IMG/VR virus record: IMGVR_UViG_3300028548_008103
Span: 1 to 22,138 of that record
DNA length: 22,138 bases
Reading direction: 5' to 3' (one strand)
Source: a virus
Below, piece by piece: positions 2,528 through 19,065 of this stretch; within the stretch, counting starts at the first letter, position 1; every line of letters begins with the position of its first letter. Made by a program: the position numbers and the translations under genes. The notes under the pieces are model-generated. The model searched no databases. It was given only the letters and a program-made list of their open reading frames with translations, and was not told the origin of the DNA.

Positions 2528-4969
2528 TTATGTTGCCAGTGCTATTGCCCTAAAATTTTTGATTCTAGGAGGTGATGCTGAATTAGTTGTTTGCATAACA
2601 ATTTTAATTGAGAATGCAATAAACGGATCCAACTCTTGACCAAGACCATCATCAGTAACACCAGCAGTATATAGATGTTCACGAAAATCATTTATGCTTC
2701 TTGATGCACCTACAGCTAAATCAGGACTGCCATCAGTGTTAAAATATCTCCAACCCAATTCTTTAAAATTAGAATCATCATCTTCTCTCAATATTTTGTA
2801 AAGAAGTTTAATTTCTCCATTTGAATCTTTATTTCCATCAAAAAATACTTTCAGTGCAGTTGCTCTTTGTGCAAGATTAACTTGTTTTATTATATATACT
2901 GCTTCGTTATTATCACCAAAAGATTCTGTAGAATCATTATATTCGCTTGTTGGATATACATCAGATGATGAATCAATGTTATTAACTCTGTTTCCAACAG
3001 CAATCATTGACATTCTTTCACTATCAATGAAAGGAGATATATTTGATGATTGTGATGTTAATGTTAAATCTAATGCTAAAGATTTTTCAGAAGACATTTC
3101 ATTATCTTGGTTAATATCAGAAGCTACCAAATATGGAACATCATAATAAACATTTTCATTTAATGGTATATTGAGAGAATTTGAAACCGTAGTCTTTGTA
3201 AACGAAGTCTGTGCACCACTTGGACTTGTTGCTGTTGATGGTCTTTTCTTTGCAACAATAGTTGTGCCGGGAAGTTCAATCCCATTAATTTGAGATTTAC
3301 CAAGTTCATATAAAATATTTTCTGTGGCAGTTATAGAATTTCCACCATTTTGTGCATGAGTAGTTCCAGTGCTATCGATAACAGCACTACTTGTTACTGT
3401 GATAGTATAACTATCAATTCCAATATTGCCGATTGATGTATGAGTTGTATTAATTTCTGTAAATGGAATTTTGTGTAACATATACAATTCAACCGTAGCA
3501 CCTGCGGCATGAGATACAGCAGTAGTTGAGTTTGTACCTCTAGTTGCACCACTAATAGTATTTGTACTAATTGAAGTATAGGTTATGATTTCATCATCAA
3601 TTTTTATATAATATATGTTAGATGTATCTCTAGAGAATTTTCCTGAAGTATCATCAAAATTTGTACCAGAAGCCAAAACAATAGTAGTGTCATCCACATC
3701 TATTGCTGTCGATAATGTTGTGCTTGCACCAGACTTTACACCATCAATAGTTACATTATTAGTTGTAACATACATTTGATGGTCGCGATGTCGCACTTGA
3801 ATCACAGCACTACCATCTAAGAAAATCAAAGGATGTTTTGACAAAGATTTAGTTGGGTTACTAGCATTCACCAAAGGAATTGTACCAGTCAATGGACTAA
3901 ACTCTGCTCTATACAAATTGAATTTCAAATCTTCAGTTAATGAAGGTGCCCAAGTTCTATTGTTATGTCCTTTAAACAAAACACCCATCGCTGGTTGTTT
4001 TGAAACTGTTCTTTCTGAAAACAAAACATTTGTTGCAGATGTAGAAGTGCCACCAGTTTGTGCTTGTGCTAATGTAGATTGGATTTCTGTTTCTCCCAAC
4101 CTTGCAATCCACACTTTGTATGTTGGAACATTAGCAATTACGACAATACAATATTCAAGGTTTGCTTGAAGATAAACTAGAGAATTAAATTTAAAATTTG
4201 TGGCTACTTGTGCAGTTACATCTATTGTAACATCAACAGGATCTTTAACCACTCTACTAAATGGCACAACTCGTGCTCCGGGAAATCCATTACTAACTTC
4301 TCTAATTTCTACAGTAACAGGAAGAGTGTCATCTTTTGATTCAAAGAAAAGATCGCAACTTGTTAAAAATATTCCCCCAACTTTATCAATTAAGAAAGTT
4401 TGTGCTAATGGATCGTCGCCGTCACCGCCGGGTGAGTCATCGAGGCCTTCACTGCTTAGAGAGCTGCTTTGTGAAACAGATGTTCTTCTTATTTCTGCGT
4501 TTCTAGTAGAAATAATAGTTTCTTGTTCAGTTCGAAAAATACCAACTGCTTGATAATTTGATTCTCCAGCAGTAATAGGATCAACAGAAGTTATATTTGT
4601 TGGGCTTGAAGTTAATCGAAAAGAAATTTCACCAGTTCTAAATTTAGGATTGCCTTTAATTTTAGGATCAGGTATACTAAAAACACCTTTGATTCTACCA
4701 CTGGCACTAGTTACGAGAGCATCACCATTTATCAAACTTGCATCGTTTGCCGAAAATCCAGCTAAAGGTTTTGTATGATCAGATACTCCTTTTACATCAA
4801 AGAACGGATAAACTTGTGTGTTAGGAAGAAAATCAAATCCTTCAAAATTAATATTGTTTGCTCTAACAAAAGGAACCATTGCTGTTGACAACAATCTTGT
4901 TCCTTTAGATTCTGAATCAATTTTTTCAACAACACGCGTCGTGATACCTGTTCTATTACGAGTTGCCAT
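2528..4969 (-). CDS. DUF4815-type giant tail protein, C-terminal part (813 aa)
   Basis: The N-terminus (RTGITTRVVEKIDSESKGTR, MVPFVRANNINFEGFDFLPNTQVYPFFD at about 32-59) and the block DPLAQTFLIDKVGGIFLTSCDL (about 186-207) resemble the middle of single-chain giant tail proteins of T4-like marine phages. The end (DPFIAFSIKIVMQTTNSAS, PPRIKNFRAIALA) is their usual C-terminus. The gene has its own strong start: AAAAGGGGA upstream of the ATG and an in-frame stop immediately before it. It lies 53 bases after the previous stop in a different frame. A repeat-like insertion around residues 410-500 includes IDDEIITYTSISTNTISGATRGT and AVSHAAGATVE, a common phage module. It probably assembles with the preceding product at the baseplate edge. 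A TATAAAAT sequence 19 bases before the ATG is a weak promoter candidate. Confidence 0.88.
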   Translation of the reverse strand: MATRNRTGITTRVVEKIDSESKGTRLLSTAMVPFVRANNINFEGFDFLPNTQVYPFFDVKGVSDHTKPLAGFSANDASLINGDALVTSASGRIKGVFSIPDPKIKGNPKFRTGEISFRLTSSPTNITSVDPITAGESNYQAVGIFRTEQETIISTRNAEIRRTSVSQSSSLSSEGLDDSPGGDGDDPLAQTFLIDKVGGIFLTSCDLFFESKDDTLPVTVEIREVSNGFPGARVVPFSRVVKDPVDVTIDVTAQVATNFKFNSLVYLQANLEYCIVVIANVPTYKVWIARLGETEIQSTLAQAQTGGTSTSATNVLFSERTVSKQPAMGVLFKGHNNRTWAPSLTEDLKFNLYRAEFSPLTGTIPLVNASNPTKSLSKHPLIFLDGSAVIQVRHRDHQMYVTTNNVTIDGVKSGASTTLSTAIDVDDTTIVLASGTNFDDTSGKFSRDTSNIYYIKIDDEIITYTSISTNTISGATRGTNSTTAVSHAAGATVELYMLHKIPFTEINTTHTSIGNIGIDSYTITVTSSAVIDSTGTTHAQNGGNSITATENILYELGKSQINGIELPGTTIVAKKRPSTATSPSGAQTSFTKTTVSNSLNIPLNENVYYDVPYLVASDINQDNEMSSEKSLALDLTLTSQSSNISPFIDSERMSMIAVGNRVNNIDSSSDVYPTSEYNDSTESFGDNNEAVYIIKQVNLAQRATALKVFFDGNKDSNGEIKLLYKILREDDDSNFKELGWRYFNTDGSPDLAVGASRSINDFREHLYTAGVTDDGLGQELDPFIAFSIKIVMQTTNSASPPRIKNFRAIALAT

Positions 4970-5022: not shown

Positions 5023-8000
5023 TCAAGCTGGCGAATCGTCGAGACCGACATTTGCATAACCAAAAACATGTTCCAATCCAGTCACATGGCCGCCGCCGCC
5101 TTGGAATTCAGCTACACCAGTAGCAGCTGGACTCGCCGTTTCTAAAGATGGGCTAGAGGAACTATTATTTGTGCCGGGATTAGTAACACTAGTTGAGGCA
5201 GCAGCTGCTGTGGACTCTGGCGATGAAACAACAACAGTTGATGAAGTTCCACTCCACTGTGTTTCCCAAGAATTCCAAATCGTTCCTATAGAATTAACAA
5301 CACTTGCGGCAACTGTATTATAATTACCTTCCACATTAAGAATCAGAACAGGGGCAATTTCAGTTTCAAACCAATCATCTCCAGAAGGTGTTAATTCAAT
5401 TTGACCAGTCCAATTTGAAAGTAGAACAGGCGTAACTCTTTCTGTTCTTGTAGCAAATGGTTGTTGGTGTGATATAATTTCTGTATAAGGAAGTGTAAAT
5501 ATATCCCCTGTCTTTTGATAATTATTATTAGTTCTTGCAGAATCAGTTGCAGCAAATTCTTCTAATTTAACATTTTTAAATGTTGCAGAAGGTCTAAGCT
5601 CATTATATTCTTGGTCAATAGATATGCTATAATCGGGATGAGTGACATCACCAAGACGATGGCCCTGAAAAGCATCAACTACAAAACCAGATTTAAATCT
5701 GTTAAGTCCGTTTGAATCTTGAATTTCAAAACTTTCTGCATCACTTTCCAAAAGAGAAAGATGTGTATAATATTCAAGATTACTAATACGATTTTGAAGT
5801 TTACCAATATCTTCCATAGTAAACCGTTGATTCTTTTCTCTGCGAATAGATACAGTGTTTGGACTGTATGTAAAAGCAGGAATAAATAAATCACCAAGTT
5901 TCATTGTATTTTGAGGTTGTTCTGGAAATTGAGGGCTTTCATCAGACGATCCTTCAATAACTCTTATTTCACTATCAGAACCAATTACAATGATTGCTTT
6001 TTTAGATAAATAATATTCTAAATCTGCTTGTGCTAAAGAATTCGGTTTAGGACAATGACTTGCAGATGAACCAGCTCCATCATATTGACGATGGAAAAAA
6101 TCAAAAGAAGAAGCAGTGATTTCATCCACAGTTGTATGGTCTGTTCCTGCACCAGCAATGTTTTCTACTGTAGGTCTAAAATCAAATCCATTAGATAAAG
6201 GAATGCCTCTATATCTAGAAACATCCACATAATCCATTCTACCTGCAATACCGCTATACGAATCCACTGTGAATACATCACCAAAACCATGTTCAAGATA
6301 ATCATAAATTACAAGTAATCTTTTTGTTGGAGCTGGAGCACCGCGTTTTCTTTCTATTCTAGCAATGTCATAAAAATTATCTCTTTGTCCATTATCAAAA
6401 AGAAAATTACCTGAAATTACTAGATCACCATCAGTGAAAGCACTTACTAATGCAGTTGCACCAGATGATACGCCTGTGATTGTATCAGAAGTTGTAAAAG
6501 ATTTTGATAATTTTGTTGACACATAACTCATTGGTGTTGTGGTGTTAATAACTCTTCCAGTTGCACCACTAGAGCTGCCTGTGATTTTTTCACCTCTTGT
6601 AAACGAACCATTCGGAGTTGACAAAGAAAGTGTTGGGGCAACAGCATCAGTCGAAGCAGCTGTTGCTTCATAAACAGCAGATACAGCAAATACATCTGCA
6701 CGACCCAATGATATTAATCTATCATCAGGTCTTGTTCCAAATGGATCTGTTGCACCAGTATCTACTTTGAGTTGTTTCATCAACTTTGTTGTTTTGGTTT
6801 TTGGAGTCACATCAGTTTTTAACAGAGTTGCCATAACCTTAAGCTTTACACTAGCGCCAAAACCAGTTAGGTTAGTAATTGTTACTGCGGCAGTTCCTCC
6901 ACCAGAAAATCCAGTTGATGCACTAATAATATCACCCTGTTGAATTCCACTCAGAACAGAGATAGTGTAATCTGATTCGCTATGTGCCAAGAATGTTTCA
7001 CCACCACCACTAGCACCTAATGTTAACGCACCGGCCGAGTTTGTTGTAACAACAAATTGTCTACGGAAAGTATATTGTGTATCAGATACACCATCATTTG
7101 ATGCAGTCAATAAAGTTTTAACTGGAGTTTTTGGTAAAATATAAATGTTTGTATTTTTTTCTGGTTCTAAAAGTTTAGCAACACTTTTTATTGAACCAGT
7201 TCCAGCAGATGATCTCGATTGTAATGATAATCTTCCACCGTTTTCTAGCAGAACACTTTCATTTTCATTGCCGCCGCCAACTTGGACCAAAGAAGATGAA
7301 GAAGACGAAATTGAAACAAATTGAACATCAGCAGTAAAATCTTGTCCACTATCTGCACTAGTATCTTCTTGATGTACAGACCGAGTATTTTCAAAATTAA
7401 ATGGTGTAATCTCAACAGCTGTGATATCATCATTACCAGAAGTTTCAATCAAATTTCCAGTTTCAGTTGAATTTGACAATGCTAAAGTTTCACCAGACGA
7501 AAAAGTTCCTGTAACATTTGTAAGAAGCAAAGTAGTGCCAGATGTACCCGAACCAAACACAAAACCAGTTGCACCACTAGTACTACCCACTACTCGTTGA
7601 CCGCCATTACTTGCAGCAGACAAAATAGTTGGACTGGGTGTACCACTTAATATAATTCGTGTAAACATACGAATATCAAAAAGATACAATCTATATGTTG
7701 CAGCTTGTTCGCCAGCGATTCCCGAATCATATTGGTATGTTCTTGCACGAGCAACACCCATATGTACTCCTACAGCTGTACCTCTTGTTGCTATATTTGT
7801 ATCATACAAATCAAGTTGTTTATAAACAGTTGTTTCACCAGAAATACTTGAAACATCTGGTGTTCCATATAGATTAGTAACTTTGATATAGTTACCCAAA
7901 TCAATTGCTGAAGCTGCAGCATTTAATGTTCTAAAATCTCTACTTTTGTTAACATCAATAATAGTTGGTGCAATTTTATCTATTTCATATCCTTTGACAT

Positions 8001-9201
8001 ATGCTTTGCCAGTAGACACTTGAAGAGCCAACAAATCAGCTGACGCTTTATTACCATCTCTTGTTGTGACACCAGAAGCATATACACCGTCAAAATCAGT
8101 TTCTCTTACACTAACATCAACAGATTCTTTCATTTCAAATGTAAAAGGTCTTACAGTATAATTGCCAGATTCATCAAATGTTCTGCGAGCAAGAGTTTGT
8201 TCAAGAATTGAATATTCAGTATTACGGGCAAGCTTTTGAACAATACCATTTTCCACTTTAATTAGTTCAACGAAATTTTTATCATCTATAGAACTTAATG
8301 GTTTAGATATCAAGGTAAGAGTTAATTGTAATCTATGTGCACCTTTGGCAGCAAAATTAGAAGTACCAGTTGCATTATCTAATAAACTTAAATCTGATTC
8401 TGGAGTAATAATAGTTTCATTAATCTGCAAACCTATTTTTGCACTTGCGTTGTTATTATATTTTTCTACAACAATAGTTTGGTCTGTAACCTCAACAAAA
8501 TGTCCTCGAATAAAATAAATTCCGTTTGATATTTTTACTAAAACAGATTTACCAGTAACAGGTGTGTTTATTGAAGCATTTGCTGTGGTCGTTGTTCTTA
8601 TAGTTTCTGTTGCCGCGGTTGTCAAAGAAGCAACATTTGCCGAATATGCTGTTGTGCCATGTTGCACTGAAATGTCTGCACTTAAATTTTCACCAATAAC
8701 GAAACTATCAAAACCTGCCGCATCCAATTTACTACGAGAAATCGTGGTAACATCTTCTGTAAAAGTTCCTGCCTCAGTTCCAGAAAGATTGCTAGATGTG
8801 TATACACCAAAAAGTGTAGCAGGGTCATCTGCTGTTGCAGCGGCCGCTGCAATAACTCTAAATTTAACACCAGATGTAGCACCAGTCAATGTTACAGGAA
8901 TATCCTCATTTAAATATTGAGAAACATCTACACTTTCACCACCAAAATTACTTTGAATTTTAATATATCTTGGTGCATCAACATTTCCCAAATAAGATAC
9001 TTGGCCAGGAATAACTACAGTTCCATCTTTAAAGATGTGACTAAATCCTTGTTCAATTTGATTTTGAAGAGTAGATTGGAGTTGTGTTAACTCTCTTGCC
9101 TGAATAGCAAACCCAGGCCGAAATAATGTTTTAACATGATTTTCAGTCGAATCAAAATCATCATAATACGGTGCTACATTTAGGTTTGTAGATTCAGGCA
9201 T
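5023..9201 (-). CDS. DUF4815-type giant tail protein, N-terminal part (1,392 aa)
   Basis: The opening (NVAPYYDDFDSTENHVKTLF, then RPGFAIQARELTQLQSTLQNQIEQG at about 28-52) is the signature of the DUF4815-type phage proteins, large virion proteins at the baseplate periphery of T4-like marine phages. The region near residues 1040-1150 (DVFTVDSYSGIAGRMDYVDV, GIPLSNGFDFRPTVEN) and the block ending LLSNWTGQIELTPSGDDWFET are also typical. Several 'G-E-K-I-T-G-S-S-S-G-A-T-G' modules lie between. The last ~70 residues are Ser/Thr/Ala/Gly-rich linker ending in GLDDSPA. In relatives I remember, the chain continues into sequence that here begins the next gene. It occupies the place of T4 genes 9/10/11. 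The start directly follows the gp8 stop with GGAG 6 bases before the ATG. Confidence 0.88.
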   Translation of the reverse strand: MPESTNLNVAPYYDDFDSTENHVKTLFRPGFAIQARELTQLQSTLQNQIEQGFSHIFKDGTVVIPGQVSYLGNVDAPRYIKIQSNFGGESVDVSQYLNEDIPVTLTGATSGVKFRVIAAAAATADDPATLFGVYTSSNLSGTEAGTFTEDVTTISRSKLDAAGFDSFVIGENLSADISVQHGTTAYSANVASLTTAATETIRTTTTANASINTPVTGKSVLVKISNGIYFIRGHFVEVTDQTIVVEKYNNNASAKIGLQINETIITPESDLSLLDNATGTSNFAAKGAHRLQLTLTLISKPLSSIDDKNFVELIKVENGIVQKLARNTEYSILEQTLARRTFDESGNYTVRPFTFEMKESVDVSVRETDFDGVYASGVTTRDGNKASADLLALQVSTGKAYVKGYEIDKIAPTIIDVNKSRDFRTLNAAASAIDLGNYIKVTNLYGTPDVSSISGETTVYKQLDLYDTNIATRGTAVGVHMGVARARTYQYDSGIAGEQAATYRLYLFDIRMFTRIILSGTPSPTILSAASNGGQRVVGSTSGATGFVFGSGTSGTTLLLTNVTGTFSSGETLALSNSTETGNLIETSGNDDITAVEITPFNFENTRSVHQEDTSADSGQDFTADVQFVSISSSSSSLVQVGGGNENESVLLENGGRLSLQSRSSAGTGSIKSVAKLLEPEKNTNIYILPKTPVKTLLTASNDGVSDTQYTFRRQFVVTTNSAGALTLGASGGGETFLAHSESDYTISVLSGIQQGDIISASTGFSGGGTAAVTITNLTGFGASVKLKVMATLLKTDVTPKTKTTKLMKQLKVDTGATDPFGTRPDDRLISLGRADVFAVSAVYEATAASTDAVAPTLSLSTPNGSFTRGEKITGSSSGATGRVINTTTPMSYVSTKLSKSFTTSDTITGVSSGATALVSAFTDGDLVISGNFLFDNGQRDNFYDIARIERKRGAPAPTKRLLVIYDYLEHGFGDVFTVDSYSGIAGRMDYVDVSRYRGIPLSNGFDFRPTVENIAGAGTDHTTVDEITASSFDFFHRQYDGAGSSASHCPKPNSLAQADLEYYLSKKAIIVIGSDSEIRVIEGSSDESPQFPEQPQNTMKLGDLFIPAFTYSPNTVSIRREKNQRFTMEDIGKLQNRISNLEYYTHLSLLESDAESFEIQDSNGLNRFKSGFVVDAFQGHRLGDVTHPDYSISIDQEYNELRPSATFKNVKLEEFAATDSARTNNNYQKTGDIFTLPYTEIISHQQPFATRTERVTPVLLSNWTGQIELTPSGDDWFETEIAPVLILNVEGNYNTVAASVVNSIGTIWNSWETQWSGTSSTVVVSSPESTAAAASTSVTNPGTNNSSSSPSLETASPAATGVAEFQGGGGHVTGLEHVFGYANVGLDDSPA

Positions 9202-10698
9202 TTAAAACTCCACTATAACTTTAATATCTTCAATCTGGTCATTAGATCGACTGATTGGTTTGCGATTTTCTAAGTAAATAAGATTACCACTATCAGCTGC
9301 CAATTCTGGATTTGCATACCCATCAGTGAAACTAATTGTGTTTCCACCAGCAAGAGTGACAAGACTGTCAGCACTTGAATCTGGTGTTCCTACTGCGCTG
9401 GATGTTGCGCCAGTAACAACATTTGCTCCACTAAAAGCAACATACGAACCTGTAGTACTATTCGTCCCAAAATCACCAAATCGTTCTTGTGTATAATATA
9501 AAATTGAATTTGATGAATCCCATTCTACAACTTTACCAATTGCACCAGTTGTTGCTTGACTTATCTTTTCATCACCATCAAATGTTCCTGATTGTGTAGT
9601 TAGTTTAAGTGCATATGTCATTCTTGCAGTTGTGATTGAAGCCACTGAAGTTGTTCCAAAAGTATGTGGATCAACAACAATACCTATTTTTCTAAAATCA
9701 TTTCCTGTAGTAATATCATCACCCTCTGCACCCGTCAGAATTGTTGACATCATTACAAAGTGTCCACCGAGTTCTTTTGGTGCATCAAATCCATGACCAC
9801 CTTTGGGTCCAATCACAACTGTAATTGCACCACCAGAACCACCTATTGCAGAAGCACTGCTTAGAGCTGTGTCTGAAAATGTAAATCCACTTGCAAGATT
9901 TACTGTACCAAAAGTATAACCAGATCCTGCTGCATGAACTGTGGTATCTGTACCAGCAGTCAACCCAAAATCTTGAATTATATTTGATGATACAGTAATT
10001 CTTACAACTGCACCAGAAGAAGTGCCTTGACTTGCGCCATCACCATATACTGCGGCAAAGTAAGTTCCGTTTGAATATCCAGAACCAGCAGTAACAATCA
10101 AAGAATCAATTGCACCATCAGTAGCAGCAGTACTAATTGTAGAATCTGTGTTGACTGGTATAAAATCAGCAGTAAGAAAACTATTAATTTGACTACTTGT
10201 TAATGAATACATAAATTGTAACACATAACCACCAAGAGAAAATGGTGCCGAAGCAGTGCTCGTTGGTTCTGTACCACTATATGCTGTTCCTGCATTATTA
10301 TCCAAAACTTTATAAACACGAAAATCAGAAGTTATAAAATAAAAAGTGGAATCATAAAGATTGGAAGCACCAGAAGTTGTGGTTACAGATGCACTATAAT
10401 CTGGTCTGTATATATCGTATATGGTCCCGTTTACCCAATTTCTACGTGGAATAACTCGTTGAACATTTGATGTTGCAATCTTTTTGGCAGCAATCATATC
10501 GTCCCAAACAAAAAATTCTTCAGAAGGACCATCAACAGGAGTTGGCGGTGCTGAATCAGAACCACCACTTGTTCCAGAAGTGTATGGGGTATTCTTACCT
10601 ATAAAAAGATAATATGTATTATTAGACGATTCAGTAAACGACTCTTCGAATTGGTCGGCATTATGAAGTCTAAATTTTTCTGTGATAATAGCTGCCAT
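9202..10698 (-). CDS. gp8: Baseplate wedge subunit gp8, enlarged
   Basis: gp8 is a dimeric wedge protein that joins gp7 and gp6 in T4. The N-terminal half fits the family: IITEKFRLHNADQFEES, then YYLFIGK (about 29-35), FFVWDDMIAAKKIA (62-75), VIPRRNWVNGTIYDIYRPDYS (82-102) and FYFITSDFRVYKVLDN (119-134). T4 gp8 has 334 residues; this one has 498. The excess includes residues 205-295, a domain also present in the neighbouring giant protein, and a 'F-D-G-D-E-K-I-S-x-A-T-T-G-A' module near 375. The C-terminus (NLIYLENRKPISRSNDQIEDIKVIVEF) is family-typical. The ATG has AGGAAAG upstream. The stop codon abuts the next ATG directly (TAAATG). Confidence 0.93.
   Translation of the reverse strand: MAAIITEKFRLHNADQFEESFTESSNNTYYLFIGKNTPYTSGTSGGSDSAPPTPVDGPSEEFFVWDDMIAAKKIATSNVQRVIPRRNWVNGTIYDIYRPDYSASVTTTSGASNLYDSTFYFITSDFRVYKVLDNNAGTAYSGTEPTSTASAPFSLGGYVLQFMYSLTSSQINSFLTADFIPVNTDSTISTAATDGAIDSLIVTAGSGYSNGTYFAAVYGDGASQGTSSGAVVRITVSSNIIQDFGLTAGTDTTVHAAGSGYTFGTVNLASGFTFSDTALSSASAIGGSGGAITVVIGPKGGHGFDAPKELGGHFVMMSTILTGAEGDDITTGNDFRKIGIVVDPHTFGTTSVASITTARMTYALKLTTQSGTFDGDEKISQATTGAIGKVVEWDSSNSILYYTQERFGDFGTNSTTGSYVAFSGANVVTGATSSAVGTPDSSADSLVTLAGGNTISFTDGYANPELAADSGNLIYLENRKPISRSNDQIEDIKVIVEF
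9814..10086 (-). repeat. Domain shared with the gp7-position protein (copy in gp8)
   Basis: Residues 205-295 of gp8 (starting GSGYSNGTYFAAVYGDG) are the partner of the segment at 15388-15660. The alignment needs no gap over 91 residues. Confidence 0.85.
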
Positions 10699-10718
10699 TT
10701 ATACTTTCCTATTTTATA

Positions 10719-10726
10719 TATTTATG
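10719..10726 (-). promoter_or_regulatory. Possible late promoter variant for gp8
   Basis: The minus strand reads CATAAATA, one base off the late consensus. It overlaps the TAA of the preceding gene and lies 20 bases before the gp8 ATG, close to the spacing of the two exact sites. The match may be chance because the region is AT-rich. Confidence 0.4.
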
Positions 10727-11426
10727 TTGCGCTACCAGCGCCAATAACTGTTTTTAAAGTAGTACCACCAGAATTTTTGATAAGAAGAGTTGAATCATCT
10801 TTCAACATATTTCCTGTAACATTATTGGTAGAACCTGTAGTTACAAAAGTTCCAGTTTCATTTGGAATTGTAACTGTTTGGTCTGCTGTTGGGTCTACCA
10901 CAGTAATTGTTGTTTCATGCGCATCAGCAGATGACCCTTCAAGAACAATTGTTCCATTTGTACCAAGTACCAAAGAAGTAAAAGTACCAGCCGCGGCACT
11001 AGTACCACCAATTGTTGTTCCATCAATAGCACCAGCATTAATATCTACAGTTGCAAGCGTTGCAGTACCAGTAGTGCTAATATTTTCATTACCAAAACTA
11101 ATCGCACCAGAAGTATCTGTGATAGAACCAGCAGCTAATATAAGAGTTCCACCTTTAAGGGTAGTTCCATTAACTGTTGTGGTTGCAAGTGTAGTAATAG
11201 TAGCAGAAGTTTGTGTACCAGTAACAACACCACTAATATTAGGAGCAGACAATGATATAACAGTAGATGATGCACTAATACCACTACTTAGGCTAGTTGC
11301 CCCGCTTCCTCCAAGGACATCATACAATTCTACAAAATTAGCATTGAGCTTCGTTGCTCCTGCTCTTAATGTATCACCGCTACCATCGTTGGAGCCTGCA
11401 CCTATTCCTATTGCTTGATATGCCAT
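10722..11426 (-). CDS. Small fibre-like structural protein (234 aa)
   Basis: The first 40 residues (IGIGAGSNDGSGDTLRAGATKLNANFVELYD) follow the motif 'G-t-x-x-N-D-G-x-G-D-x-L-R-x-x-x-x-K-x-N-x-N-F-x-E-L-Y', common at the N-terminus of phage fibre-like proteins and presumably a virion attachment segment. The rest is low-complexity Thr/Ser/Gly/Ala beta-rich sequence with the recurring phage motif IDGTTIGGTSAAAGTFTSL and a VDPTADQTVTIPNETGTFV block near the end. The ATG has a good GAGGA site 7-8 bases upstream and a late promoter. T4 has no gene between 7 and 8, so this is an insertion relative to T4. A short fibre or baseplate decoration is likely, but the exact role is unknown. Confidence 0.85.
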   Translation of the reverse strand: MAYQAIGIGAGSNDGSGDTLRAGATKLNANFVELYDVLGGSGATSLSSGISASSTVISLSAPNISGVVTGTQTSATITTLATTTVNGTTLKGGTLILAAGSITDTSGAISFGNENISTTGTATLATVDINAGAIDGTTIGGTSAAAGTFTSLVLGTNGTIVLEGSSADAHETTITVVDPTADQTVTIPNETGTFVTTGSTNNVTGNMLKDDSTLLIKNSGGTTLKTVIGAGSAT

Positions 11427-11448
11427 TTATTGATTCCTCATTCCTTAT

Positions 11449-11456
11449 TATTTATA
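11449..11456 (-). promoter_or_regulatory. T4-type late promoter for the small fibre-like gene
   Basis: The minus strand reads TATAAATA, an exact late-promoter match. It lies in the 34-base gap after the giant gene, 22 bases before the next ATG, the same distance as at gp25. Confidence 0.75.
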
Positions 11457-11460
11457 ATGA

Positions 11461-14400
11461 TTATACAGCATCAAAGGTTATAATTGTTGAATCATATGTT
11501 GCAAGATTAGAATCAAATGTAGTTGCTTGAGCAGCACCAACAAGTGAAATTTCACTTATAGGTAAAACAAGGCCACCATCTTCTGATGCGACACCAAGTG
11601 ACACATTTAAAGTGTTTTGTTGTAAAAATTCAAGTGTTCCTAATTCTAATAATAATTCATCACCAGCATTTGTTGAAGAACCATCTGTACCATTTAATAA
11701 AACAAAACCGCCTTCGTTGCCGGGAATCAAATTATAATTTGTGTTTGAAAATTGAATACGATCACCATCATCACGGCCGCCCGTACTGTTAAGAATAATG
11801 TCATCCCCAACATCGATAACACCAGATTCAGTAATTAATGCCTCTCCAGCGTTAGTAGATGAACCATCTGTTCCGACTAGTGCTAACCTTCCTGTTCCTA
11901 TTCCTGTTCCTGTACCTAAATAACCATGTTCACTAATTAATGACTCTCCAGCGTTAGTAGAACCACCATCTGTTCCGACTAGTAATAACCTTCCTGTTCC
12001 TGTTTCAAGTCCAATAAGACTATTATTTTCAAGTCCAACTGCATCAACACTACCATTTATTAAAACTTTATCTCCATCATTAGACTTGCCGGGATCTGTA
12101 CCATCTAAAAGAATATTTTCTCCAATATCCAAAACAGCAGATGTGCCATTAAAAATAATATTTCCTGTTCCTGTTCCAGATTCTTGCCCAATTAAAATAT
12201 TAATTTCACGATCATCTTGCAGTGATATTCTATTTACTGCTAATTCTGTGTGTATTCTAGCTTCTCTTGTGAATGGTACTATATTTCTATTGTTATAATT
12301 CTCTTCTGGAATTTCACCTTGATTAGTATCACCCTCAAATTCAATCAAACTTCCTTCTGTAATTATTTTATTATTTTCACGAAGACCACTTTCGATAACA
12401 ATATTAACACTGTTATCTCCAACTCCAATATTTTCTCCTAACAAATATCCGTTTGAATCTGTTTCAGTTTCTAGTTTAATAATATTAACATCTGAACCAG
12501 TAGTAAATGCATTATTTTCTGAACCAGACTCAACTGTTATTCTACTAACTTCATTGTCTCTAAATCTACCTCTACCAGTATTTTCTAATAATATTTGATT
12601 ACCGTTTTCTGATATTATTACTTCATTTCTAACTTCATCTGCACCCAAGTCGAATAAAATAAAATCTTCTAAAGTTAATTCATCAAAAGATGAACTTTCT
12701 TCAAATATTATACCACCATCATTAGTATTTAACGTTCCAGCTGGTTCAGTAAATCCAACAGTGTTAAGTCCAACAAGATCAGATATAGATATTGAAGAAA
12801 TTTCATTAATTTTTACACTAGAATCAGTAGAGTTATCCCAATAATCTTCATAAACTATTCTATCTCCTATATCAATACCATCCATCACCAAATTATCTTC
12901 CATGATAATAGGTGATTTGTCTCTATTACCAATTTCTAATTGAATTCCTGGCCTATCAAAGAAAATTGAACCGGGTAAAGTATTAGATAGGAGCGGTGCG
13001 CCATAAGATCTTTTTGCAGAAACAAGTTGTGGTTTAACACTAAGTTTGGTTACTTTTGAAACTGTTCTATTATGAATACTATTTTCACCAAGTGCTGTTT
13101 CTACAAGTAATCGACCGCCACCGGAACCTTCTTCTAGATTAACAGAACCATCACCAGCATTACCAGAGTTTTCTATTGAAATATCAAGACCGCTTTCAAA
13201 TTGTAAATTATCACCATCTGTTTCTTCTAGAAGTTTATCACCAATTGCTACACCGTTTTCTATGAGCAACCCATCAAATAAACTACTTTCACCATCTGGA
13301 GAAAGTGTATTTTGGCGCATTCCAAGATTATTTTGTACATTAAATACCAATCTAATCAATGAAGCAAGTTCATCGCCAATACCAACACCACTAATTCCAA
13401 TTGCAGCTGAAATTTGTGTTGCAATTGCAATTTTACCAAATGGTGCAAATCCTGCTGGATGGATTGAAGATTTCAATTCATTCATGTATTCAGAAATAGC
13501 TGCGTCAACTTTTACTTCATAAGAAAATTGTTGATAGAAACGAGAATCTTGAATGCGAATAATATCTTCGCTAAGAGTACTATCAATATTGAGATATTTA
13601 CCTACTCTGGTTGCAGTAGTTCCAAAAGTTACATTTGTAGTTCCTGTTCCTTGTGTAAGAACTGTTGCTGTTGCACCACCGGAATCTGTTATTGTGTCCC
13701 CAACAATATTAAAAACATTTGCACCAGGCTCTAGAATAACTTCATCGCCAGCATCTGCTCCAGTGCTATCTGTTCCATCTAAAGCAAGTTCATCGCCAAG
13801 AATCTCATTTTCCATTATCAGTTGAGAATTAATATTAGCAGATAAAAAATCTGTACCGTCTAAAAGAATATTGTTGCCTATTTCATTCAGTATTTTATCA
13901 CCATCTTCTTGAACAATAAAACCGAAACCATCTGATTGGTCACCATCAAAAATAACTTGGTCATAAAGAATTTTACCAGTTGAAACAGTTGTTACATCAG
14001 GAGAATCTTCTGTAATAATTGTTTCTAATGATTCACCAACAAGTCTAGGGTTTGGTGTATTAACATGTTTTATTGATTGTCCATAATCAGGAAATATAAA
14101 TTTATTCCCAGGTTCAATTTCTAATAATAGTTCACCACCAGCATGTGTAATGAATTTTTGTGACTCTTCTTCACTAATAATATTATCTTTTTCAACATCT
14201 AGATTGAATGTACGAATTATAAAACTATCTCCGGCATCATTGCTGTCCGAATCTGTTCCATTGAATATTATTTCATTACCTGATCCTTCATTGAATAGAT
14301 AATTAAATGACCCACTATTTGGAGAATTTTCTAAAATAACTGCATCTGAATTATTAATTATTACTTTATCAGTAACAAAAGTATCATTAGATTGACTTAT

Positions 14401-17151
14401 TAAAGAACCAGAATTTTGTTCGCCGAATACATTCAATCCTACAGTAGCATCTTCTAAAGATAAATCAGCTTCGTTTGTTTTTCCATCTAATAAAAATCTA
14501 CCGGCAACATCATTCCTTACAACTAAACTATCTTCTAATCCAATACCTACTTCAATCCTACCACCATCATCGTCTTCTAAACTAATCTGAAAAACATTTG
14601 CATCAATAGCATCAGAAATGATTTGACCAACTTCATTTTCTAAATCAATACCTGTTTCTATTTGAGCAGAATTATTAATATTAAAACCAGAACCCGCTTC
14701 ATCAACACCTTCTAACTGAACACCATCATTATATGTGTCGGATTGTTCTAATTTTACTCTTTCTATTGGTGGAGAATCTATTACAAGTTCTTGTGTATCA
14801 GGATTGTACGAAACAACTGAACCATTATCATTAGTAAAAGTATTTCCTATTCCAAATACACCACTAACATCTTTAAGAATAAGGTGCGTATTAATAGTTG
14901 TATCTGGAGCAGTAGAATATTTAAATCCATTATCAATAACTTTGATTTCAATTATTTTACCAATATCAGTTGTATTTGAGATGAGGTTTGCACTTAAACC
15001 GTTTTCTGTAGTAATTCTTGTTGTGGGCAATGAAGTATAACCACCACCAACATCACCAAGATGAACTTTAATAAGCTCACCTTGCTCAGAAGTTGTTAAA
15101 GTTTCTGTTTCTAAAACTATACCATCTGATAAATTACCATAACTATCTGTAATTAAATCTAAATCTTCTGATATAACCCTATCGCCTAAACCATCACCAG
15201 TTGTTCCATCTTCTTGTCGTAATTGAAAACCATCATCAATAGTTTTTGTTAGTGTTTGAAACAAATCATAATCATTACTGTCATAAGTTGACTTGGCATT
15301 ATTTTGATTATCACTTGGCATCCAAAAAACTATGTCTGGAAATTCATCAAAAATATATTGATTGGATTGTACAATTGTTGTATTGGGGTTTACCAATATT
15401 GTACCACCAGTTCCACCCATATCAGATGTCGTGGTTAATTTTGCATCAGAAAAAGTAAATCCACTTGTAAGTTTTACATTTCCGAAAGTATAACCAGTTC
15501 CAGACCTATGTATTGTAGTTTCAGTTGCAATGGTAGTACCAAATGCAACAATTTTATTTTCTTTAACAACAATTCTTATAATTGCACCAGAAGATGTGCC
15601 TTGATTGTTACCATCACCAAAAATCGCTGCATAGTAAGTTCCATTTGTGTAATCAGAACCAAAATCTGTAACAAGAACAGAAACAATAGCACCACCAGTA
15701 CTAACTGAACTAATTTGTGATTTTAATTTGTTTATAAATAATGGATAATAATATGATTTGCTATCACTAAATCTTCTGTCAATACCAAATACAGCATATG
15801 GTGCATATGCAGGCGTTGCTAGGCTAGTTCCATCCAACAAAACAGAAGGTGAAACAAGTTGTTGTTTTGTTCCATCTTCTAAAAGAAAATTTTCTGATGT
15901 AGTTGTTTCTTCGCTAGACAATCTACCACCAACAACAGATACAAATGCACGAGCAGAAGAAGTATTAGTATCAACAGATGCATTGGTAAATTTAATAGCA
16001 TCACCAACTTTATATCCAGTACCACCACTTTCAACAAGAACTTCACTAATACTACCCGAAGATATTTCAGAAATTTCAGCACTAGCATTACCATTGCCAG
16101 CTCTTGAATCTAAAGTTATAATTTCGCCTTTATCATAAAGCAAACCACCATCAACAACATCAATTTTTGTTACTATTCCTTGAATAGTAAATTGCATAGC
16201 TATGTCGGATGTTTCAGATATTCCAGTAAATAGTTCCGATATTGTAAATCCAGTACCCTTTATAGTATCTTCTCTAAGAGTAAATTCAACTATATTTTCA
16301 GTACCTTGTTGAAAACTATATTCAGAAATAATTTGAGCTGTTGTTCCAGAAGATGCTCCGATAATATTTTTACCAACCATATCAGCAGGAACAGCACCGG
16401 GCTTGTCAGAAGTACAACGAATAATAATTGGCACTGCCCAATTACCATCGCTTGATCTTATCATATATTTTTCAGGATAATCGATTGTCGCTTCTTGACC
16501 TAATAATATTCTGAAGAAAAGTTTGTGTCCTTCAGATGTTCCTTTGGCTGCATACAAATCTCTAATTTGTTTAATAAGATTTCTTTTTGAAACACCACTG
16601 GTAAGAGAAAACGGTATAGATTCCATAAAAGAATCTTTGAATGCAGAAAGAAAATGATCTACAGTATTATCAGGATTTGCATATTCAAAAAGTTGTTGTA
16701 TATTTTGAACAGGGTTAGCACGATACTTAACTAGGGTACTAATTGCACCACTAGTTCCACCAGTAATTGTTTCGCCTTCTTTAAATCTTTGGTTTGCAGA
16801 AGTATAAAGAGTTTCATCATCATCTACTAATATTGTAGCAGTTGCTTTACTGATTCCACCAGTAATTGTTTCGCCTACTTGAAATTTGCCAGTGCTATCC
16901 TCAAAAACAATTTTATTTGATTCATTAGAATTGAATCTATCAGTACCATCTAATGTAATATAACTAGTTGATACTGTTTCAAGTAAAACTTGATCTACAG
17001 TACCAGTTATAGTCATTTGGGCAGATTCAAGAAATTTATAATATTGTCTTAAAAATTGAACAAAGATTGGATGGTCTGCCTGAATATAATCAGGTACTTG
17101 ACCATCAATTAATGGCGATATTTTAGTTATTAATGATGATTCTTGTCCCAT
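11461..17151 (-). CDS. Giant 1,896-residue baseplate protein in the gp7 position, with DGTD repeats
   Basis: It occupies the place of T4 gene 7 between genes 6 and 8, so a wedge-initiator or peripheral wedge role is likely; T4 gp7 is about 1,030 residues, so this is much longer. Residues 1-45 (ISPLIDGQVPDYIQ, then HPIFVQFLRQYYKFLE) form a conserved helical N-terminus seen at the start of several phage baseplate proteins. Next come 'F-x-x-G-E-x-I-T-G-G-x-S' modules (about 90-160), a 'SGGTGYKVGD' region, and a 91-residue domain (498-588) shared with gp8 in this window. From about residue 780 onward the protein is dominated by repeats of the type L-x-G-T-D-x-x-S-x-x-x-A-G-D-x-L-L-x-E, acidic and beta-strand rich. 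It starts 3 bases after the gp6 stop without a clear ribosome site, so it is probably translationally coupled. The fold of the repeats is unknown to me. Confidence 0.85.
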   Translation of the reverse strand: MGQESSLITKISPLIDGQVPDYIQADHPIFVQFLRQYYKFLESAQMTITGTVDQVLLETVSTSYITLDGTDRFNSNESNKIVFEDSTGKFQVGETITGGISKATATILVDDDETLYTSANQRFKEGETITGGTSGAISTLVKYRANPVQNIQQLFEYANPDNTVDHFLSAFKDSFMESIPFSLTSGVSKRNLIKQIRDLYAAKGTSEGHKLFFRILLGQEATIDYPEKYMIRSSDGNWAVPIIIRCTSDKPGAVPADMVGKNIIGASSGTTAQIISEYSFQQGTENIVEFTLREDTIKGTGFTISELFTGISETSDIAMQFTIQGIVTKIDVVDGGLLYDKGEIITLDSRAGNGNASAEISEISSGSISEVLVESGGTGYKVGDAIKFTNASVDTNTSSARAFVSVVGGRLSSEETTTSENFLLEDGTKQQLVSPSVLLDGTSLATPAYAPYAVFGIDRRFSDSKSYYYPLFINKLKSQISSVSTGGAIVSVLVTDFGSDYTNGTYYAAIFGDGNNQGTSSGAIIRIVVKENKIVAFGTTIATETTIHRSGTGYTFGNVKLTSGFTFSDAKLTTTSDMGGTGGTILVNPNTTIVQSNQYIFDEFPDIVFWMPSDNQNNAKSTYDSNDYDLFQTLTKTIDDGFQLRQEDGTTGDGLGDRVISEDLDLITDSYGNLSDGIVLETETLTTSEQGELIKVHLGDVGGGYTSLPTTRITTENGLSANLISNTTDIGKIIEIKVIDNGFKYSTAPDTTINTHLILKDVSGVFGIGNTFTNDNGSVVSYNPDTQELVIDSPPIERVKLEQSDTYNDGVQLEGVDEAGSGFNINNSAQIETGIDLENEVGQIISDAIDANVFQISLEDDDGGRIEVGIGLEDSLVVRNDVAGRFLLDGKTNEADLSLEDATVGLNVFGEQNSGSLISQSNDTFVTDKVIINNSDAVILENSPNSGSFNYLFNEGSGNEIIFNGTDSDSNDAGDSFIIRTFNLDVEKDNIISEEESQKFITHAGGELLLEIEPGNKFIFPDYGQSIKHVNTPNPRLVGESLETIITEDSPDVTTVSTGKILYDQVIFDGDQSDGFGFIVQEDGDKILNEIGNNILLDGTDFLSANINSQLIMENEILGDELALDGTDSTGADAGDEVILEPGANVFNIVGDTITDSGGATATVLTQGTGTTNVTFGTTATRVGKYLNIDSTLSEDIIRIQDSRFYQQFSYEVKVDAAISEYMNELKSSIHPAGFAPFGKIAIATQISAAIGISGVGIGDELASLIRLVFNVQNNLGMRQNTLSPDGESSLFDGLLIENGVAIGDKLLEETDGDNLQFESGLDISIENSGNAGDGSVNLEEGSGGGRLLVETALGENSIHNRTVSKVTKLSVKPQLVSAKRSYGAPLLSNTLPGSIFFDRPGIQLEIGNRDKSPIIMEDNLVMDGIDIGDRIVYEDYWDNSTDSSVKINEISSISISDLVGLNTVGFTEPAGTLNTNDGGIIFEESSSFDELTLEDFILFDLGADEVRNEVIISENGNQILLENTGRGRFRDNEVSRITVESGSENNAFTTGSDVNIIKLETETDSNGYLLGENIGVGDNSVNIVIESGLRENNKIITEGSLIEFEGDTNQGEIPEENYNNRNIVPFTREARIHTELAVNRISLQDDREINILIGQESGTGTGNIIFNGTSAVLDIGENILLDGTDPGKSNDGDKVLINGSVDAVGLENNSLIGLETGTGRLLLVGTDGGSTNAGESLISEHGYLGTGTGIGTGRLALVGTDGSSTNAGEALITESGVIDVGDDIILNSTGGRDDGDRIQFSNTNYNLIPGNEGGFVLLNGTDGSSTNAGDELLLELGTLEFLQQNTLNVSLGVASEDGGLVLPISEISLVGAAQATTFDSNLATYDSTIITFDAV
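11640..14280 (-). repeat. Field of DGTD-type protein repeats
   Basis: At least eight copies of a short motif, roughly [LIF]-x-G-T-D-x-x-S-x-x-[AD]-G-[DE]-x-[LIV]-[LIV], are scattered here (for example LLNGTDGSSTNAGDELLLE near 11640-11700 and IIFNGTDSDSNDAGDSFII near 14230-14280). An earlier relative (LDGTDRFNSN) lies near 16935. Two copies, at 11842-11905 and 11944-12007, repeat almost exactly at DNA level with a period of 102 bp (34 codons). The low-divergence pair points to recent tandem duplication. Confidence 0.8.
15388..15660 (-). repeat. Domain shared with gp8 (copy in gp7-position protein)
   Basis: Residues 498-588 (starting GSDYTNGTYYAAIFGDG) align without gaps to residues 205-295 of gp8 (9814-10086). 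By eye about 54 of 91 residues are identical, including NQGTSSGA/SQGTSSGA, GYTFG and SGFTFSD. The DNA is also visibly similar. Confidence 0.85.
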
Positions 17152-17154
17152 CTT

Positions 17155-19065
17155 TTAGTAACCCGATCCTGATGGACTTACAGAAGCAGATGGCGCACTA
17201 TAAGTCGTTCCACCACTTTCACTACCCACAGCAATACTATCAATCTCGCCAGTTACGGTAGTGTTAATTAAATCAAGTTCTAAAATTTGATTTCTTAATG
17301 CTACAATATCTCTAGAATTAGGAACAACAATTACTCTTACAAGAGTAGAAGATTCACCATCAAAATTCGATATAGCTGTTACATTAATTTGGTCAATTTT
17401 TATTTGACCAGTGGCATAATTTATCGTGCCTATAATTGGGTTTGTATAAACTCTGTCTCCACCAGTAGAAATATAATATAATCTTATGTTTCCATTACCG
17501 TCATCGTCAAGGAAATATTCCTCGGTTGCTCCACTAATATTAAAACCAGAAGATGACAAAACACCACCGAGTGCTTCATTATGACCACTATGAGGATTAA
17601 ACAAAGCATTATTAAAAAATAGATTATAACTTGTAATTGAATTCAAAGTAGGACTAAAATATTTTACCAATCTTGGAACAACAGAACTAGCAGTTATAGA
17701 ATTATCTGTATTATCAATAGACCTCAACAGAAAAGAATTTCTCAATACTGCATTAAATTTTGTAAGTTCTGTTGTATTATAGGAAGTAAGTGTCGATGTA
17801 ATTTCAGTAACCAAAGTATCTTTTGTTTTAGTTGTCAAATTAGAATCGAACTTAAAATTAACTGTGAGAAAAATATAGGTATAATCTGGATCAACAATAA
17901 CAGGAGTAATTGACGCAACTTTGAAAGGTTCTAAAGCATCAATCAATGAAACCTTTTCTTGCAAACTTAATTTAGTTCCCTGAGTATTAATTACAGAGAT
18001 AAATACTTTGCCATATTCTGGTGTGCTTACAACACCCAAAACAGGATCGAAAGAACCATTTTCTCCACCAAATACTTGAACATTGTCTGCATTAGGATGT
18101 AATTTTTTCACATAAACTTTATAATCATTTGTGGTAACACAACGACCCTGTGCAGCATAATCAAGAGGAGCAGATAATTTTATTGATTGAATACTTTCTG
18201 CGAATGAACCGCCGTTTGCAGCTTCAATAGTGGTTGTGTCAATATTAGTAACAGTATTGATTGCACCTGAGGCAGTAAATGAAAATGCACCGTTTGCTTC
18301 ACCAATATTTGTAACAACATAGTTAAGAATAACTATGTTGCCATCTGACAGCGCTTTACTTACAACACCATCACCAAAATAAACTTCGAAAAGTCCATCT
18401 TCTGATTCTTGCAAATAATATACAGCACTAGTTCCTGTCAGCTGTGTTATGTCAGTTGCTTTAGTATAAGCCACGGTAGTGCTATCAGTTGAAGAGTTTT
18501 GTACTTTGACTATTAATGTTGAAGTATCTGCCACATTACTTGTTAATATAAATCTTTGATCAACATTTGTGCTATCAACTGTATATCTTGTATTGACATA
18601 TGTTCCTTCATAAATTGGCACATCAGCAAATAAAAGACCAGAACCTGTTTGAGAAGCAGTAAAATCAGACACAGTTACAAATTGATAATTCACATTATCA
18701 ATTCTGCTAGTAAATACTTGACCTGAATTCATAGTTGCTGTTGGTAAAGAAATATCATTCAGAAAAACATTGATTTTTGCTTTTGGTGCTCTAACTGATC
18801 TAACTTCATAACCCAATGTTTTTGCATGAGACACAACACTAGACCGCAATGCAGCACTGTCAAGAAACATTTCATTTGCAATCATATTTGCATGAAAACT
18901 TAGATAATGGGTGTTATAGGATAGAACATCTAACAATGCACTCATGCCAGAACCTTCAAAATCATAATCAAGAAATTGATCTTGATTTTTTAGAAATGTT
19001 TTAAGATTTCCTTTAATCAAATCAAAATCAAGTTCTGAAATATCTAATTTTTGATTGTTTGCCAT
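17155..19065 (-). CDS. gp6: Baseplate wedge subunit gp6
   Basis: gp6 forms the continuous inner ring that links the six wedges around the hub. The N-terminus (ISELDFDLIKGNLKTFLKN, then DYDFEGSGMSALLDVLSYNTHY around residues 35-55, and MIANEMFLDSAALRSSVVSHAKTLGYEVRS) is a strong family signature shared with baseplate J-type proteins. The length of 636 residues is close to T4 gp6 (660). The middle part has a YFGDGVVSKAL segment typical of the family. The C-terminus ends in a Ser/Gly/Pro-rich tail (SASVSPSGSGY). The start overlaps the gp25 stop by one base, and a GGAGG lies about 15 bases upstream. The next gene begins 3 bases after its TAA. Confidence 0.95.
   Translation of the reverse strand: MANNQKLDISELDFDLIKGNLKTFLKNQDQFLDYDFEGSGMSALLDVLSYNTHYLSFHANMIANEMFLDSAALRSSVVSHAKTLGYEVRSVRAPKAKINVFLNDISLPTATMNSGQVFTSRIDNVNYQFVTVSDFTASQTGSGLLFADVPIYEGTYVNTRYTVDSTNVDQRFILTSNVADTSTLIVKVQNSSTDSTTVAYTKATDITQLTGTSAVYYLQESEDGLFEVYFGDGVVSKALSDGNIVILNYVVTNIGEANGAFSFTASGAINTVTNIDTTTIEAANGGSFAESIQSIKLSAPLDYAAQGRCVTTNDYKVYVKKLHPNADNVQVFGGENGSFDPVLGVVSTPEYGKVFISVINTQGTKLSLQEKVSLIDALEPFKVASITPVIVDPDYTYIFLTVNFKFDSNLTTKTKDTLVTEITSTLTSYNTTELTKFNAVLRNSFLLRSIDNTDNSITASSVVPRLVKYFSPTLNSITSYNLFFNNALFNPHSGHNEALGGVLSSSGFNISGATEEYFLDDDGNGNIRLYYISTGGDRVYTNPIIGTINYATGQIKIDQINVTAISNFDGESSTLVRVIVVPNSRDIVALRNQILELDLINTTVTGEIDSIAVGSESGGTTYSAPSASVSPSGSGY

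Follow-up and report, generated by a model that had tools for sequence, protein, structure and literature searches.

A domain of the baseplate wedge protein gp8 copied into the adjacent gp7-position protein in one clade of Kyanoviridae-like phages

The window, by which we mean the whole 22,138-nucleotide stretch of viral DNA analysed here, encodes a domain of the baseplate wedge protein gp8 that occurs a second time inside the giant protein at the position of gp7. Comparison with relatives shows that the two segments are homologous, that the direction of copying was from gp8 to the gp7-position protein, that the copy has a single origin and a definable insertion site, and that it is under purifying selection. 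The whole explanation that we favour, a single duplication from gp8 to gp7 that has been maintained, most likely as a surface or contact module, is given a probability of about 0.7.

The nearest relatives by protein similarity identify the window as a fragment of a Kyanoviridae-like phage, one of a group of marine T4-like phages; for gp8, similarity is 59% to Methylophilales phage Melnitz, 48% and 43% to the Pelagibacter phages Mosig and HTVC008M, and approximately 35% to cyanophages. The genes are ordered on the minus strand as follows (Table 1): a gp5-like hub protein; a gp25-type ORF, so named by position and length; gp6; the gp7-position protein; a gp9/10-N-like ORF; gp8; and a VrlC-like protein. 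The gp9/10-N-like ORF (10722-11426, minus strand, 234 aa), which intervenes between the gp7-position gene and gp8, is without one repeat unit of about 73 residues found in the otherwise near-identical protein of contig L007 (307 aa). The VrlC-like gene of the window consists of two ORFs on the minus strand, 5023-9201 (1392 aa) and 2528-4969 (813 aa), the second of which has its own start after the purine-rich AAGGGGAATATAA. The same split is present in L010 (95-97% identity), and a single ORF in L012 (2159 aa) and L016 (2182 aa); the split is a gene fission in the subclade of the window.

Table 1. Features of the baseplate gene cluster that bear on the shared domain (positions in the window)
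Feature	Position	Strand	Basis
gp6, baseplate J-like wedge protein	17155..19065	-	phrog_219, E 2.1e-164; marker for the phage tree
gp7-position giant wedge protein, 1896 aa, recipient	11461..17151	-	lies between gp6 and gp8; PF23786; phrog_17744, phrog_26741, phrog_2885
Conserved core of the gp7-position protein, residues ~145-387	15991..16719	-	phrog_17744, phrog_26741, also matched weakly by T4 gp7
Left half of the acceptor module, residues ~431-482, ...PYAVFGIDRRFSDSKSYYYPLF...	15706..15861	-	profile of the unoccupied module; alignment
gp8-derived copy within the gp7-position protein, residues 487-588	15388..15693	-	54/91 identity; clean insertion; one clade; dN/dS
Right half of the acceptor module, residues ~590-640, ...NQYIFDEFPDIVFWMPSDNQNNAKST...	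15232..15384	-	profile of the unoccupied module; alignment
gp8-type baseplate wedge protein, 498 aa, donor	9202..10698	-	PF09215; phrog_438; AlphaFold2 model
Shared gp8 domain including its edges, residues 191-303	9790..10128	-	in gp8 of all relatives; not in T4 gp8
Core of the second gp8 insert, residues ~366-445, 'GTFDGDEKISQATTGAIGKV' module	9364..9603	-	alignment with T4; repeat family D3

The original prediction, made from the sequence alone, was that 91 residues of each protein align without gaps at about 54 identities, with visible similarity of the DNA, and both observations hold. Residues 205-295 of gp8 (9814-10086) and 498-588 of the gp7-position protein (15388-15660) are identical at exactly 54 of 91 positions at a constant offset of 293, and BLASTP of one protein against the other gives an E value of 6e-33, with a gapped alignment of 142-294 against 441-587 at 49% identity. 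Homology starts some 12-18 residues ahead of residue 205, so that the shared unit comprises about 100-110 residues. At the DNA level the two segments form a single direct repeat of 264 nt at 71% identity, by far the longest repeat in the window, and the matches at first, second and third codon positions number 67, 69 and 52 of 91, the greater divergence of third positions being the pattern expected for conserved coding DNA. The next best ungapped diagonal of 91 residues has 20 identities, and 2000 shuffles reach at most 19. Of the 34 columns in which G, S, T and A are absent from both copies, 22 are identical, which excludes low complexity as the cause of the match; the similarity is thus not confined to low-complexity residues, as the prediction required, and at 59% sequence identity unrelated folds for the two segments would be untenable.

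The donor is a recognizable gp8: it matches Pfam PF09215 (Phage-Gp8) with E 1.2e-21, passing the cutoff, and phrog_438 over its full length with E 5.6e-128. Its AlphaFold2 model (pLDDT 83.8) has as best solved matches in Foldseek a Klebsiella phage structure (9f4a, E 2.8e-12) and T4 gp8 (1n7z, E 9.6e-11), with the N-terminal half and the C-terminal ~40 residues aligning on the same framework; the TM-scores are modest (0.38-0.56), probably because of two inserts. One is the shared domain, predicted to be beta-rich and mostly modelled at pLDDT above 90, which falls between T4 residues ~210 and ~253 and is absent from T4 gp8 (334 aa). The other, likewise absent from T4 gp8, comprises about 100 residues at ~348-459, before the conserved C-terminus. 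Relative to T4, therefore, the domain is an accessory insertion as had been claimed, but it is not peculiar to this phage, since it is present in gp8 of every relative examined (viral contigs, Melnitz, Mosig and cyanophages) and is thus ancestral to the phage group. Of the 164 residues by which the window gp8 exceeds that of T4, the excess from which the accessory nature of the domain had been concluded, only about 95 are explained by it, the second insert being separate. A short module, 'F..GE.ITG.TSGATG.V' (family D3), is common to the gp7-position, gp8 and VrlC-like proteins and lies at 16736-16885, 9533-9583, 6554-6604 and 7562-7612.

The recipient had been called gp7, which its location between gp6 and gp8 supports. 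It matches PF23786 (Baseplate_wedge) at residues 17-237, but none of the Pfam gp7 domains PF21427, PF21428 and PF21456, all three of which are found in T4 gp7, was detected in it; being in the right place without a Pfam gp7 domain, it is here termed the gp7-position protein. Kinship to T4 gp7 appears remote and limited to part of the conserved core at residues ~145-387, for which residues 646-759 of the T4 protein, in its helical region, weakly match the profiles phrog_26741 (1.7e-5), phrog_2885 (1.3e-4) and phrog_17744 (3.6e-4) that the window protein matches strongly; the direct profile match between the two proteins has an E value of 0.016 in a two-sequence search, and otherwise no significant similarity was detected. 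T4 Gp7 has been described as absent from pelagimyophages and cyanomyophages, with VrlC proposed as its substitute (PMC7029224). Contrary to that view, the profile link suggests that a divergent gp7 core exists in the gp7-position giants of pelagiphages and cyanophages. A profile of the N-terminal part of the gp7-position protein matched no solved structure, and a structure model of residues 1-710 (pLDDT 46) is too poor for use; in it the predicted strands of the copy fall near those of gp8, at pLDDT 23-36 and so without weight. The C-terminal half (approximately 11461-14300, minus strand) is rich in 'LDGTD....AGD..LLE' repeats of families D2, D4 and D10. Even phages that are otherwise near-identical differ here by large in-frame indels, a length polymorphism possibly driven by these repeats.

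Among close relatives with the gp7-position gene in sequence, the copy is present in the window, L009, L010, L088 and L090, as well as in L012, L013, L015 and L016, and absent from L014, L018, L020, L021, L023-25, L029-31, L033, L035, L040-42, L045 and L093. The comparison reveals an empty site: sister proteins read '...YAVFGTDRRFSDAQTYYYPLYLSEARAKAKDTDNG-QATFFIFDQVPGGVFWMPSNN...', and carriers hold the gp8 domain at the hyphen. The copy sits, cleanly inserted, in a loop belonging to an acceptor module that is uninterrupted in ten sister gp7-position proteins; a profile of this uninterrupted module matches the carriers on either side of the insert. The acceptor module is itself missing from the deeper relatives (L040-42, L045 and L093), so that the insertions are nested, and it had no match elsewhere in 50,697 phage records. 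In some relatives (L021, L025 and L029) the unoccupied loop has AHAHTF or AHAHVF and NHAKST motifs, possibly metal-binding, which carriers do not have.

The direction and number of events follow from where the copies fall in trees. Used as a query against the 50,697 phage records, the copy matched only gp8 genes. In a tree of the domain, all nine gp7 copies group together (100/100) in a clade nested among gp8 copies, and in a tree of gp6 the seven carriers for which that gene is available likewise form one clade (100/100); thus one duplication from gp8 to gp7 explains the pattern. A distance of 5.6 kb separates the gp8 and gp7 copies of the window. The gp7 clade attaches, with weak support, beside gp8 of the non-carriers L021, L025 and L029, so the donor may have been either the phage's own gp8 or that of a close relative.

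Since its insertion the copy has behaved as a protein domain under constraint. Between the two carrier subclades, which are still about 75% identical in the copy, dN/dS is approximately 0.19-0.24, and within the second subclade it is approximately 0.12; every gp7 copy retains 24 of the 33 residues that do not vary among gp8 copies, and at eight positions the gp7 copies have become fixed for something else. The dN/dS ratios and the retained invariant residues together indicate a maintained domain. At the smallest scale, between the window and its closest phage, L010, all differences in the copy change amino acids (dN 0.04, dS 0), a contrast that could reflect relaxed or diversifying selection at that scale. 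A hot spot of recombination or diversity at the domain, considered on the strength of these values, was rejected because the SNP profile places variability in the C-terminal half of the protein.

Cyanophages contain a comparable arrangement. A gp8-type module is found in the gp7-position giants of contig L077 and of cyanophages S-H38, S-SSM4, P-RSM4, syn9 and ACG-2014d; in S-H38, S-SSM4, syn9 and ACG-2014d it is a near full-length double module in a giant encoded next to gp6, as in the window, and at least 149 phage records match the cyanophage gp7 copy at 60% identity or more. Annotation of these giants goes no further than wedge initiator or structural protein, and no mention of their kinship to gp8 was found. 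The domain itself has two GxGY-type motifs flanking a GDG turn, in which the G, D, G and Y positions are invariant or nearly so in the alignment. A profile of the domain finds related modules in many cyanophage ORFs, with up to 13 matches per record, and by this sequence criterion it is one of the 'GxGY' modules, a family widespread among cyanophage virion proteins. An apparent kinship of S-SM2 gp7 to gp8 (phrog_438, E 2.6e-8) was set aside, the segment resembling ordinary GxGY modules.

The cyanophage gp7 module is older than that of the window and was probably acquired in a separate event. The cyanophage copies are 32-34% identical to the window gp8 domain, match the gp8 domains of the loci compared at approximately 38-46%, and form their own clade (99/98). 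The window copy and the gp8 of its own group share indels and the motifs 'QGTSSGA', 'FG.T..T.TT.H' and 'SGFTFSD', none of which the cyanophage gp7 copies have, and the insertion contexts differ. It could be supposed instead that the gp7 copy is ancestral, being an ancient copy shared with cyanophages and lost in the sisters, with gene conversion keeping that of the window close to gp8. The AU test does not reject a tree in which all gp7 copies form one clade (p 0.084), but the free tree is better by 18 log units and, with the indels and the insertion contexts, favours two events; the shared indels speak against a common origin, and we consider an ancestral copy very improbable.

What the copy does is a further question, for which the T4 baseplate provides the framework. 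T4 gp8 sits in the upper dome, where it contacts gp10, gp7 and gp6 (PMC3004832), so that the contact between gp7 and gp8 on which the prediction relied is a stated feature of the T4 wedge; gp7 and gp8 form the platform on which gp6 docks by its N-terminal dimer, one chain on each (PMC3004832). In the explanation that we favour, gp8 throughout this phage group includes a beta module of about 100 residues, which was duplicated once in the common ancestor of the window phage and the eight other carriers; the duplicate entered a loop within an accessory module of the gp7-position protein and was then kept as a folded domain. Such a self-contained surface module would most likely give the gp7-type protein a contact surface already offered by gp8, the contact being made either inside the wedge or with a different peripheral tail protein. 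We infer the surface position and the contact role, neither of which is visible in a gp7 model of such low pLDDT. The most serious competitor, which we judge less probable, treats the copy as a decoration, whether neutral or exchangeable, long beta-rich tail proteins of marine myophages freely gaining GxGY modules and gp7 having taken that of a nearby gene. The abundance of these modules in single cyanophage records, in gp7-position proteins and several other ORFs alike, the lineage-specific acceptor module and the in-frame indels of the C-terminal half all agree with it, and gp7 proteins that collect exchangeable beta modules remain a strong case as the simpler reading; it is the purifying selection on the copy, and its retention in two subclades at the present level of identity, that count against mere decoration.

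More specific roles appear less likely. Because T4 gp7 and gp8 jointly dock the gp6 dimer, a pseudo-symmetric contact is plausible, in which the two gp6 chains would dock on the gp8 domain and its gp7 copy respectively, the same module serving both halves of the wedge platform. By analogy with T4, donor and recipient are precisely these two partners, and gp8-type modules occur in gp7-position proteins of two phage groups; yet T4 manages without the domain in gp8, and sister phages with the same gp6 family are without the gp7 copy, so that we regard such docking as unlikely. Broader, and to us doubtful, is the proposal that the accessory domain of gp8 was placed in gp7 at least twice independently, both copies presenting the same surface to the two-fold gp6 dimer, which would amount to a pseudo-symmetric platform built by domain copying. 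It also seems improbable that both copies form a shared ligand- or receptor-binding site (for example, for a glycan or a metal) multiplied for avidity. Host-recognition domains are known in baseplate-region proteins of this group (PMC7029224), and the AHAHTF motif of the acceptor loop in some relatives would fit; against this, no lectin or binding family was matched in Pfam, small or structural residues (G, Y, T and A) predominate among those that both copies share, and there is no hot spot of variation at the domain.

Reuse of domains among T4 baseplate proteins is already known, gp10, gp11 and gp12 sharing a common 'flower' fold (PMC3004832), and the window is a clear case of such reuse; no report of domain sharing between gp7 and gp8 was found in the open-access papers searched. 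As in the window, the T4 proteins are interacting peripheral baseplate proteins encoded by adjacent co-transcribed genes, and the domain that they share has one origin but carries different decorations from protein to protein. Unlike that ancient sharing, which was detected by structure, the case described here is evident from protein and DNA sequence, is younger and is restricted to a single clade, the empty site being preserved in sister phages. The example is polarised, since donor, recipient, empty site and clade can all be named, and it illustrates how abundant marine phages enlarge their giant baseplate proteins with modules copied from neighbouring genes, a route that for T4 gp10, gp11 and gp12 is inferred from structure only. 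For annotators it connects gp8 with the gp7-position giants, which are poorly understood, and the recurrence in cyanophages raises a question for cryo-electron microscopy, namely whether gp7 and gp8 may present the same module to one partner.
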